A DNA stretch of 64,000 bases from Natrialba magadii ATCC 43099 (lineage in GTDB: Archaea; Halobacteriota; Halobacteria; Halobacteriales; Natrialbaceae), in contig NC_013923.1 in the NCBI RefSeq assembly GCF_000025625.1, forward strand, positions 1 through 64,000, read 5' to 3'. Under the pieces are notes generated by a model, which saw only the letters and a program-made list of their open reading frames with translations, ran no database searches and was not told where the DNA came from. A program made the translations under genes and the position numbers. This document shows, in pieces, positions 7,873-11,103 of the stretch. Position 1 is the first letter of the stretch, and every line of letters starts with the position of its first letter.

Positions 7873-8370
7873 TAGTAGGATACCCAGTTCCCGCTGTGAC
7901 AGTGATGACTCGGGATAGAACAGGACAAGACAGGGCGAGACAGGGTGAGGAAGAGCAGGGTGAGACAGGGTGAGGAAGAACAGGGTGAGACAGGGCGAGG
8001 AAGAACAGGGTGAGACAGGGCAAGACAGAACAGGCTCCCCCCAAAGCGGCGGTCAATTTCGCAGATGCCGTCACGAACAGCGTGCTGAATACACGGGTTG
8101 TACTCCGCACTCGCGTAGCCAGACCACAACCAGCATTACGATAGTTGCCAGTCTCCGGTGACACCTGCCGTCCTCGGTGACTGCTCTCGGTTCGTCGGTG
8201 GATTTGGACCGACGACAACCGATCGAATGACAGCCTCGCAAGTACCGAGACACGCATCCATCCGCGATCGTGTGGGATTTCTGGTAGCCGTGACGAGTGA
8301 ACTCCTTCCCAGAGGCGTACGCAACCCGGGGACAGTCTCACCTGTCGACAGCAGCTGTCACCGGGCCGGT
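7873..8370. other. intergenic region with a 25-base tandem array
   Basis: No supported gene. It holds the array at 7931-8030 and then unremarkable sequence up to the coiled-coil gene. The words GTGCTGAATA and GCCAGTCTCCG seen at 8090-8155 also occur together at 15270-15305, so part of it may be a dispersed non-coding sequence. Confidence 0.5.
7931..8030 (+). repeat. 25-base tandem repeat, four units
   Basis: Units start at 7931, 7956, 7981 and 8006. Each reads CAGGGYGAGACAGGG followed by a GA-rich remainder, with one to four changes between units. It is purine-rich on the plus strand. Confidence 0.85.
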
Positions 8371-9348
8371 CTATCCGGTCGTTTTTGTATCGATGTCAGT
8401 GTCAGTATCCATGTCAGTATCAGTGTCAGTATCAGTATCCGTGTCAATATCCGCACCTGTGTCTGTCTTACTCCCCGTCTTTGCCTCACTCCCTCTCTCC
8501 ATCCCTCCCCCCTCACCAGGAATCTCCGCATCCTCCATCAGAAGTACACGTCGCTCGGTGTACTCGAGTCCGTTTTTGCGCTGGCGGGTTCGTTTGATTG
8601 CGAGTCGATTCTTCGAGAGATCGAGCAAGGCGTCGATCGTTCTGGAGACGAGTTTCTTCGCGTAGCTCTCGCTGATGCCTGTCTCCTGTCTGCGGATCCA
8701 GTGTTTCATCTCGCTTGCAGTGACGTATTCGCGAACGCCGGCACAGCCGTTCTCCCAGGGATTGTCGCCAACGCCTGGATCAGTCCGTGCTTTCCAGAGC
8801 CGCGCCGCAAGTCGAGATGGTAGGGACGAGACCGTTGCATGGAGCATATCGTCGTCCATGGTTGCAAGTTGCTGAATCGGCAGGAGATCACCGTGTGCGA
8901 GCGCGACGTTACCGCCACGCCCGAGTGGGTCATCGCTCTCGGGGAGTCGGAAGTACCGCCTGCCGTCGTCTTTGCGGATGCGCTCGAGACGGCCATCGGC
9001 GACGTCGACCTCGGTTTCGTCGACGTGTGTTTCGAGTAGATGGGCACCCTTCTCGAGTTCGCGGGCCTGGAGTTCGGTGACGCGCTCTTTGTTCGCGGTG
9101 AGTTTCTTTGCGTAGGCGTCCAGTCGCGCTTCGACCGGGGACTGTGCGTCTTCGAGGTTGTCGATGCGAGTGCGGAGCTGGTCGTTTGTCGTCTGTGCTC
9201 GGTCGAGTGCAGTCTCGAGTTGTTCGAGTCGAGTGTCTCGGTACTCGAGTTCACTTTCGAGGGCGGTCACCCGCTCGCGCAGGGTTTCGAGTTCGGCAGT
9301 CAGTGCTTGCAGTGTGCTCGGGTCGGGGTGCTGGGATTGTGTACTCAT
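8371..9348 (-). CDS. coiled-coil / winged-helix protein with an Asp-Thr repeat tail
   Basis: The 325-residue protein begins MSTQSQHPDPSTLQALTAEL. Residues about 10-80 form a long coiled coil (LRERVTALESELEYRDTRLE). Residues about 190-275 include a probable winged-helix (EYVTASEMKHWIRRQ, then YAKKLVSRTIDALLDL). The last 30 residues alternate Asp and Thr, coded by a simple repeat at 8390-8455. An upstream in-frame extension to 9546 is Pro/Thr-rich and unlikely. The gene follows the TnpB-like gene on the same strand after 287 bases carrying short direct repeats, so the two may form one unit. A DNA-binding or partition/replication accessory role is a guess. Confidence 0.72.
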   Translation of the reverse strand: MSTQSQHPDPSTLQALTAELETLRERVTALESELEYRDTRLEQLETALDRAQTTNDQLRTRIDNLEDAQSPVEARLDAYAKKLTANKERVTELQARELEKGAHLLETHVDETEVDVADGRLERIRKDDGRRYFRLPESDDPLGRGGNVALAHGDLLPIQQLATMDDDMLHATVSSLPSRLAARLWKARTDPGVGDNPWENGCAGVREYVTASEMKHWIRRQETGISESYAKKLVSRTIDALLDLSKNRLAIKRTRQRKNGLEYTERRVLLMEDAEIPGEGGGMERGSEAKTGSKTDTGADIDTDTDTDTDTDMDTDTDIDTKTTG

Positions 9349-9501
9349 GTCTGGTGTGGGGTGGGATGTGTCGTTGGTCGGTGGTGTGTCGTGGGTCGGT
9401 GCTGTGTCGCTGAGACCTGGGTGTGATCGGTCGGTGCGACTGGGGCGGACACCGGTCGGCGAAAAGGGTAGTTGAGTCTGCAGGGGAGTGTTGGTACTGG
9501 C

Positions 9502-9576
9502 GGTGCCACTGCGGTTTGACGGTGCCACTGCAGTTTGGGGTGCCACTGCAGCTTGGCGGTGTCACTGCGGGTTTGG
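9502..9576 (+). repeat. four direct repeats (iteron-like) upstream of the coiled-coil gene
   Basis: GGTGYCACTGC recurs at 9502, 9521, 9539 and 9558 with 18-19 base spacing, each followed by a (A/G)GYTTG-like end. The array lies in the 287-base gap between the TnpB-like gene and the coiled-coil gene, 155-230 bases before the latter's start. Spacing and position suit a binding-site cluster for a DNA-binding protein. Confidence 0.7.
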
Positions 9577-9635
9577 TCGGTGCTGGTCCGGCAGTGGTCG
9601 CGGTGGCGATGGTTATGATGATTTTGTGGTTTCGA

Positions 9636-10388
9636 TCACCCATCGCGCTCGTGTCGGCCACCGTCAGCCAGCATCGCGTGTCGCCCATCGGGTGTAGCGT
9701 GTCGGTCGGCCGGCCCAGTGTGCCGTTCGTCCGGCCCGGTGTGTCGTTGGTCCGGTGCAGCCGAACGCGTCGGGCGGTAGGCACAGCGCTGACCGGGGTA
9801 GTACCGCTGGGCGAGGACCTTCGCAGCGTTGCAATCGGCGTAGACGCCGCCGACGTAACAGTCCGGGTTCGGACAGCAGACTGTCTGGCTTCGCACCCGC
9901 TCGCCGATGACGCCGCAGGCGTGACACTCCAGCGAGGAGTACGGCTCTGGGACCGCCGCGACCTCGAGTCGGTACTCGGCGGCCACGGTGCGGAGCCGGC
10001 GGTGGGCCGCCGGGAGTAGCCACGCAGTCCCGCGGTGTGCGTTGGGGTCGGTCAGCCACGCCCAGAGGTCGGGTTCGTGGTTGCTATCCTCGGTGACCAG
10101 GACGGGGTCGTCGTAGGCGGTTGCGTACTCGCAAATCGTCCGTGCGGCGTCGTCGATCTCGGCGCGGATCGCGGCGTGGTGCTGTGTGACTGCCGAGCGG
10201 ATGGTGTCTCGATCGGTGTCGCTGGCAAGGTGGGCGGCGGTCTGTGCGCGGAGCTCGTCGAGGTGGGCACAGACAGCGTCGCCGCTGATCACGTACGCGC
10301 CGGTCCAATCTGGCATCGTCACCGGACAGGCGGTGTAGAGGTTGTGTTCGCCGATATCGACGCCGATCGCGGTGGGCTCACTACGCAT
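9636..10388 (-). CDS. miniature TnpB/IS605-OrfB-like RuvC nuclease
   Basis: The 250-residue protein is much shorter than ordinary TnpB (about 370-430) because it starts directly at the RuvC-I motif IGVDIGEHNLYTA (Asp 11). The other two acidic residues are in place: Glu 100 in VLVTEDSNHEPD and Asp 185 in VYADCNAAK. The zinc ribbon has CHAC at 155-158 and a second Cys pair around 172 and 177. The N-terminal nucleic-acid-binding part (WED/REC) is absent. The C-terminus has a RHTGP/RHATP repeat of about 45 residues. The start ATG overlaps the stop of the preceding small gene by eight bases. It could be a domesticated remnant of a transposon or a working small nuclease; no tnpA is nearby. Confidence 0.8.
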   Translation of the reverse strand: MRSEPTAIGVDIGEHNLYTACPVTMPDWTGAYVISGDAVCAHLDELRAQTAAHLASDTDRDTIRSAVTQHHAAIRAEIDDAARTICEYATAYDDPVLVTEDSNHEPDLWAWLTDPNAHRGTAWLLPAAHRRLRTVAAEYRLEVAAVPEPYSSLECHACGVIGERVRSQTVCCPNPDCYVGGVYADCNAAKVLAQRYYPGQRCAYRPTRSAAPDQRHTGPDERHTGPADRHATPDGRHAMLADGGRHERDG

Positions 10389-10608
10389 CGCGACCACCGT
10401 CCGTCGGCTCGAAGAGGGTTGCGTCGTCGCCCGCGACGTGGATCGCGTCGTAGTGGGTGGCTGGGTCGCGGGTGGGTGTTGCTGCGGGGAACTCTACTGA
10501 TCGGCGGGTAGCGGGTGCGTCTGCGCTGTTCTCGTGGCCTGTCTGCTGGCCAGCTATACCATCGTCTAGTGGGCAATGTTCATTGCCCCTCGAGCGTTCA
10601 TTTCGCAT
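10381..10608 (-). CDS. small unknown protein translationally coupled to the TnpB-like gene
   Basis: The 75-residue product is acidic and lacks a recognisable family; its end (DATLFEPTDGGRDA) overlaps the start of the TnpB-like gene by eight bases, typical of coupled genes. The 18-base perfect palindrome at 10571-10588 falls inside its first codons, so a later start is possible. It could be a separated N-terminal fragment of the neighbouring nuclease or an unrelated partner. Confidence 0.5.
   Translation of the reverse strand: MRNERSRGNEHCPLDDGIAGQQTGHENSADAPATRRSVEFPAATPTRDPATHYDAIHVAGDDATLFEPTDGGRDA
10571..10588. promoter_or_regulatory. perfect 18-base palindrome, candidate operator
   Basis: GGGCAATGTTCATTGCCC is perfectly self-complementary and lies at the 5' end of the small-gene/TnpB-like unit. 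Size and symmetry fit a dimeric winged-helix repressor, possibly the product of the gene at 10807 (inference). Confidence 0.5.
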
Positions 10609-10725
10609 GGTCGGAACCTCGTGCAGAGGATGACCCGACCCCGGCGTGTCTCCAGCACGCTGGACCTTTGTGGCCCAGAAAGGTCAGGTCAACAATCACT
10701 TATCTTCGACTGCTAATATATCTTA

Positions 10726-10740
10726 CTGACGAGTCGTCAG
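10726..10740. promoter_or_regulatory. 15-base palindrome beside a TATA box, candidate operator
   Basis: CTGACGAGTCGTCAG is a perfect 7+1+7 inverted repeat directly after the TATA-like TAATATATCTTA at 10714-10725. It lies between the TnpB-like unit and the divergent winged-helix gene, so it could control either. Confidence 0.55.
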
Positions 10741-10791
10741 TGACTGGTTGCTTTATACAACTGGGTGAAGGCTAGTAGTCAGAACACACCA

Positions 10792-10804
10792 ACAACCAGT
10801 GGTT
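10792..10804. promoter_or_regulatory. 13-base inverted repeat just before the winged-helix gene
   Basis: CAACCAGTGGTTG is a perfect 6+1+6 inverted repeat ending two bases before the ATG at 10807, with TTTATAC about 50 bases before the ATG. Autoregulation by the encoded protein is plausible. Confidence 0.5.
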
Positions 10805-10806
10805 GT

Positions 10807-11103
10807 ATGTCTATTGCTTCCAATTTCTTGAATGAGATGCGCCAGGAAGCAGAGTGGATGGTTCCGTCGGACAACAAAATTCTCGAACTCATCCGTGAGT
10901 ATGGGAACTTGACTCCCACAGCAATCGAAGATCTCGGTGGCCCAAGTGCTGGTCATGCTCGAAACCGGTGTCCCGTGCTTGCCAAGTATGGACTACTCGA
11001 GCGAATCTCTCGTGGTCTCTACGGAATTACTGCGGAGGGGGAAGCCTACCTCAACGAAGAACTCGACGCAAGTGAACTCGAGTCGGTTGAAGAATCTGAG
11101 TAG
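10807..11103 (+). CDS. winged-helix repressor of the phage PhiH1-repressor type
   Basis: The 98-residue protein starts MSIASNFLNEMRQEAEWMVP and has the pattern KILELIREYGNLTPTAIE (helix-turn-helix), ARNRCPVLAKYGLLERISRGLYGITAEGEAYL (recognition helix and wing), then an acidic tail. This matches the family of haloarchaeal PhiH1 repressor-like proteins common on plasmids, proviruses and near mobile genes. Palindromes at 10726 and 10792 flank its promoter. The start was chosen because residues before it (from 10765) show no family match. It is divergent from the TnpB-like unit. Confidence 0.85.
   Translation: MSIASNFLNEMRQEAEWMVPSDNKILELIREYGNLTPTAIEDLGGPSAGHARNRCPVLAKYGLLERISRGLYGITAEGEAYLNEELDASELESVEESE

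Follow-up and report, generated by a model that had tools for sequence, protein, structure and literature searches.

A conserved TnpB-derived gene lacking the guide-binding half, carried behind a halovirus-type control region with a structured leader RNA in Natrialba magadii

Why should a salt-loving archaeon keep a protein that has the nuclease core of TnpB and nothing of the half that binds the guide RNA? The locus that raises this question lies in Natrialba magadii ATCC 43099, within the first 64 kb of a contig of 378,348 bases (NC_013923.1) in a genome with four contigs; this whole stretch of 64,000 nucleotides (nt) is referred to as the window. The locus comprises a small gene (S), the TnpB-like gene (T) and a third gene (C) on one strand, and a divergent repressor-like gene (R) on the other. 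A preliminary description, made from the letters alone, had placed all four correctly, and both the 8-nt overlap of S and T and the iteron-like repeats between T and C were borne out (Table 1). It had left the choice between a domesticated nuclease system, a plasmid maintenance or defence module, and a decaying transposon. Relatives were taken from genomes sampled at one per species, and gene calls in the retrieved loci (L numbers) are our own.

On sequence evidence, T is a maintained and conserved gene of salt-loving archaea, neither a fragment nor debris. Pfam assigns to it the zinc-ribbon TNB domain only (Cas12f1-like_TNB, PF07282, score above the cut-off), and the NCBIfam model guided_TnpB gives 16.9 of 100 bits, far under its cut-off. 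The predicted structure is an RNase H/RuvC core that Foldseek matches best to Cas12f, TnpB and Fanzor (E 3e-5 to 8e-4), and T shares 32% identity with the C-terminal half of the TnpB of N. magadii. Against a full-length TnpB frame of 470 residues in the same genome, the alignment pairs residue 6 of T with residue 228, so that the N-terminal WED/REC half is wholly missing. The intact RuvC triad and zinc ribbon noticed earlier in this short protein without a guide-binding part proved to be general, as D11, E100 and D185 and the cysteines C155, C158, C172 and C177 are invariant across 28 aligned relatives. Such relatives, 55–90% identical, occur in 25 of the 125 genomes of the family Natrialbaceae (nine genera); all start directly at RuvC-I, save for S-derived or other short leaders, and their core is under purifying selection (ratio of non-synonymous to synonymous substitution rates, dN/dS, 0.11–0.44 in nine comparisons). 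Damaged copies exist but are few (L100 and, partial, L099). No TnpA gene adjoins T. Searches with T matched only the TnpB of ISH12 among phages and nothing among viral contigs. A random truncation amid full-length relatives is thus not what is found: the relatives share the short form and conserved neighbours, and the proposal of a domesticated nuclease system fits.

The main feature of the region, overlooked in the preliminary description, is a structured leader RNA upstream of S. The alignment of the R–S intergenic region contains conserved inverted repeats whose sequence changes, and in the resulting architecture helix P1 encloses P2 and P3, followed by P4 and then by P5 within the first codons of S. 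In 57 sequences, 91.8% of the cells are paired and 30 of 34 pairs show two-sided change, the independent covariation events being fewer than these cell counts because few RNA types are represented among the sequences. Covariation scores 0.472, compared with 0.196 ± 0.008 after shuffling and no more than 0.136 when the structure is slid, in an alignment that was fitted to the structure, which favours the score. Single-sequence folds of many divergent members arrive at the same architecture, and so do T loci to which our RNA models give low scores or none (L070, L073, L077, L078, L080, L090–L094 and L099). The three perfect palindromes reported earlier are all present; their interpretation purely as repressor features fails for the one inside S, which is helix P5 of the covarying RNA. 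No covariance model of Rfam matches the leader, even with E-values up to 5 allowed, and the RNA appears to be undescribed as far as Rfam and the literature searched show, since searches on domesticated mini-TnpB or halovirus leader RNA returned nothing pertinent.

The 3′ strand of P1 has a second possible partner, namely the nucleotides just before the S start codon, which repeat the 5′ strand of P1. The pairings are CCGACC-AUG with GGTCGG, AGAAGCC-AUG with GGCTTC, AGAAGTC-AUG with GACTTC, GAATCC-AUG with GGATTC, and GACCC-AUG with GGGTC. Contiguous complementarity of the pre-start segment to the P1 3′ strand averages 5.37, against 3.75 ± 0.19 when permuted among sequences (0/2000), a figure that overstates independence because the independent sequence types number about six; the average for other 8-mers within the same RNA is 2.81. 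In L303 the pre-start segment tracks the 3′ strand of P1, whereas the 5′ strand does not. In chromosomal T loci 8 of 9 nt match, with one mismatch (ACGCAAGCC with GGCTCGCGT), and the copies without R in L306–L309 match more poorly (3–4 nt). Mutually exclusive pairing at the start codon has been kept through sequence change in about six independent types, and the dual complementarity of the P1 3′ strand suggests a translational switch.

Where else does this RNA occur? A first model (R1), built from 15 sequences, picked up additional members that diverge further, in front of modules carrying other cargo, and has matches in 41 of the 125 family genomes; a second model (R2) has matches in 84 of these 125 and, across the order, in 75 of 293 genomes, spread over 36 genera. 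Two tailed viruses have the RNA between their repressor gene and the early operon that diverges from it (BJ1, E 2.7e-9; Humcor1, 1.3e-5), and in the pleolipovirus Harhisp1 it adjoins repressor and integrase (1.4e-12), E-values from these models being rough. The repressor regions of phiH, phiCh1 and SNJ2 gave no match to the RNA models, and a text search of the paper on BJ1 (repressor, palindromes, stem-loops) found no such structure mentioned. R accompanies the RNA in all 18 loci tested of the set L262–L280, as well as in L317–L322 and L330, and it again lies about 100–160 nt upstream of the RNA in operons of provirus type from Natrialbaceae and further families. By eye, it was not clear that each type of R goes strictly with one type of RNA, and no such rule is claimed. 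Copies of the leader without R are found as well, in the N. magadii chromosome (L323–L325) and elsewhere (L306–L310, L326–L329), some genera having as many as 19 in one genome; a small zinc-ribbon protein (CPxC...PCGC) often comes next.

R itself, announced earlier as a divergent PhiH1-type repressor, matches the PHROG 2440 regulator (E 1.6e-32) and is a winged-helix repressor of the phiH/BJ1 type, 61% identical to gp20 of halovirus BJ1 and 34–35% to RepR of phiH and phiCh1; pleolipovirus repressors are also weaker matches than BJ1. In the gene order of the T loci, a homologue of R is divergent and upstream in 32 of 33, and C is downstream in 22. The same R, S and C also enclose other cargo in place of T: an HNH protein (L103, E 5.8e-7), Mrr-like proteins recognized from a motif read by eye (L101, L168, L272), an AbrB-like protein (also by eye) and small helical proteins. 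When the segment 10381–11103 of the window is compared with L071 and L072, T and C are 85–91% identical between Natrialba species while the types of R and of leader RNA differ, as if the control region had been swapped like a phage immunity region. Since R and the RNA stand together at haloviral repressor/early-operon junctions, the pair carried by the T module is best read as an immunity-type control region of halovirus kind, and the module, judged by its organization, is such a region driving exchangeable cargo.

These observations would fit an accessory module in which temperate-halovirus control is joined to a guide-free nuclease in conflicts between mobile elements, a reading to which we give about even chances. 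R would hold the operon off through the palindromes between R and S, and loss or titration of R, for example by an incoming related virus or plasmid, would allow transcription. The leader would then set the output: with the 3′ strand of P1 on its 5′ strand the start codon would be free, whereas with the 5′ strand missing, cleaved or bound, the 3′ strand would pair with the 5–9 nt before the start and block it. T would cleave DNA without an RNA guide, C would likely be its DNA-binding or bridging partner and direct it to DNA, and together they might exclude or damage competing DNA.

Several points weigh against this reading, besides the small number of RNA types behind the covariation counts. 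Direct repeats flank P1 and may be DNA sites too. The T model has modest confidence (predicted local distance difference test, pLDDT, 60), and C is absent from 11 of the 33 T loci. Pfam did not call the Mrr-like cargo, and in L105, L107 and L278 just a small helical protein stands between S and C, so the cargo is not invariably a nuclease. PADLOC recognized no defence family in the module and returned weak Cas12-type matches to the zinc-ribbon end of T and coiled-coil matches for C. The transcription, translation and nuclease steps of the model are predictions from the letters.

The main rival for T, less probable than not by a good measure but to be taken seriously, is a structure-specific nuclease (for Holliday junctions or branches) that would serve replication or recombination of its own plasmid or provirus, with the control region only timing an early gene. 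RuvC and MOC1 resolvases are indeed among the weaker fold matches (4ld0, 7w8d, 6jrf), and the fused T of L112 belongs to a long operon of provirus type that also has genes for an HNH protein and an integrase; the top matches, however, are Cas12f and TnpB rather than a RuvC resolvase, the zinc ribbon is retained, and T is absent from most of the loci read that have the same R and RNA. That the conserved palindromes are DNA operators alone, for R or another protein, and have no function as RNA, is improbable. They do sit between two divergent promoters, and phiCh1 and phiH are known to have such repressor–operator systems (see the reference list of PMC6210493), but pairing survives two-sided changes with variable loops and without sliding, and the helices begin about 28 nt past the TATA-like box and extend beyond the start codon. 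Still more improbable is a T that remains RNA-guided, with the leader as its guide. The guide RNA of IscB occupies the 5′ position, and a structured RNA lies directly 5′ of T in nearly all loci with a preserved leader; yet the half that binds RNA in TnpB is entirely absent, the RNA also stands in front of viral operons and of modules that have no T, and the nucleotides that flank it are promoter or start codon instead of a variable guide. Nor does a guide RNA at 9400–9640, as once suggested, find support, this stretch being a poorly conserved, indel-rich repeat tract with no match to an Rfam family. That T is what remains of an IS200/IS605 or IS1341-type element in decay is hardly credible, for although N. 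magadii has about 20 IS605 OrfB genes, some of them truncated (PMC3403918), such decay is already contradicted by a truncation point, active site, set of neighbours and purifying selection that are alike in 33 loci of nine genera, with no TnpA adjoining.

Table 1. Features of the S-T-C/R locus, in positions of the window.
Feature	Position	Strand	Remarks
S	10608..10381	minus	75 amino acids (aa)
T	9636..10388	minus	250 aa; ATG at 10388, alternative GTG start at 10397
C	9348..8371	minus	325 aa, starting MSTQSQ
R	10807..11103	plus	divergent from S-T-C
Leader RNA, whole	10561..10690	minus	5′ end at about 10690; extends into first S codons
Helix P1, 5′ strand	10680..10690	minus	GACCTGACCTT
Helix P1, 3′ strand	10632..10642	minus	GGGGTCGGGTC; pre-start segment is second possible partner
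Helix P2	10661..10677	minus	TGGGCC / GGTCCA
Helix P3	10644..10660	minus	GCGTG / CACGC
Helix P4	10617..10629	minus	CCTC / GAGG; weakest support of all helices
Pre-start segment	10609..10614	minus	CCGACC; abuts S start codon; possible second partner of P1 3′ strand
Helix P5	10571..10588	minus	GGGCAATG-AA-CATTGCCC; within S codons 7–13; palindrome noted earlier
TATA-like box, S-T operon	10713..10722	minus	about 28 nt upstream of RNA; similar spacing in relatives
TATA-like box of R	10752..10757	plus	from sequence
Palindrome	10725..10741		ACTGACGA-G-TCGTCAGT; perfect; candidate R operator
Palindrome	10792..10806		ACAACCA-G-TGGTTGT; perfect; abuts R start; candidate auto-operator
Tandem repeat between T and C	9500..9576		period 18–19 (37); 3.7 copies at 9500–9568

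Of the two candidate operators, the one nearer to S recurs, exactly or nearly, in L075, L084, L085, L101 and L109, which have closely related R. S ends in a motif IxVAGDDAxLFEP, and in five relatives (L075, L083, L085, L109 and L110) the whole of it or its first 30 residues are fused to T, which had escaped the preliminary description. C combines a coiled coil of 90 residues (10–99) with a winged-helix-like domain (AlphaFold pLDDT 86); its family is multicopy and widespread in haloarchaea (73 of the 293 genomes of the order), and C next to T is under purifying selection (dN/dS 0.11–0.27). Fold and sequence searches with C returned coiled-coil or insignificant matches only, with no solved relative beyond the coiled coil, and a search of phages gave no C. 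The iteron-like repeats between T and C are also present in relatives, in differing copy number, and further tandem repeats lie around or inside the ends of both genes, at 7930–8034 (period 25), 8387–8451 (18–30) and 9699–9755 (21). A second R-T-C module is located on the same replicon, 65 kb away (L070:8647-9366; contig 2, 74646-75365), with a T 69% identical and another RNA type. A separate second family of RuvC-only TnpB-like proteins, of about 220 aa, is represented on contig 1 (L006/L332, 2864338-2864994) and occurs in eight of the 125 genomes, one of which has four copies. In a plasmid of Natrinema sp. DC36 (L112:8995-11190), a T-like RuvC domain is joined to about 500 residues with CxxC motifs in a protein of 732 aa, within a provirus-like operon. 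The open reading frame 5′ of T in L084 and L111, considered as the N-terminal half of a split TnpB, encodes no piece of TnpB but a cargo protein with a zinc ribbon, belonging to the F1 group.

To our knowledge, the known descendants of TnpB retain the guide-binding half, with or without an active site, and a cutter-only descendant conserved for so long raises the question of what a guide-free TnpB does and how it is targeted. Haloviruses of two unrelated groups (tailed viruses and a pleolipovirus) have the RNA where lysogeny is decided, and a large proportion of Natrialbaceae genomes have it too; it therefore gives a way into the post-transcriptional control of archaeal viruses. With a conserved cutter lying behind a virus-type control region that includes a folded RNA, cutter and RNA become testable new parts of archaeal virus–host conflict. 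A wider reading, which is possible but doubtful, would make the leader family a general switch of temperate haloarchaeal viruses and of modules derived from them: strand exchange at the start codon would gate early genes, and host modules would have captured it to fire exchangeable nucleases, the guide-free TnpB derivative among them, when a related virus arrives.

Compared with known systems, the leader resembles the bacterial riboswitches and attenuators that sequester start sites, in that one strand has two mutually exclusive partners, one of them beside the start codon; unlike these it is archaeal and viral, has no known ligand, is not in Rfam and has a helix (P5) within the coding sequence. 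The immunity regions of phiH, phiCh1 and BJ1 share with the module a homologous winged-helix repressor divergent from an operon, and BJ1, Humcor1 and Harhisp1 share its leader RNA, unlike phiH, phiCh1 and SNJ2; the operon of the module differs from theirs in being a short stand-alone cargo. TnpB of IS200/IS605 and IS607 elements and Cas12f have the RuvC fold, the D/E/D triad and the zinc ribbon (TNB) in common with T, whereas T lacks the WED/REC half, an accompanying TnpA and any conserved guide-RNA-like region downstream, and is placed in a repressor-controlled operon. TldR, a nuclease-dead TnpB that serves phages as an RNA-guided repressor, is like T a descendant of TnpB exapted in the context of mobile elements, but T is the opposite combination, with the catalytic triad intact and the guide-binding half lost.
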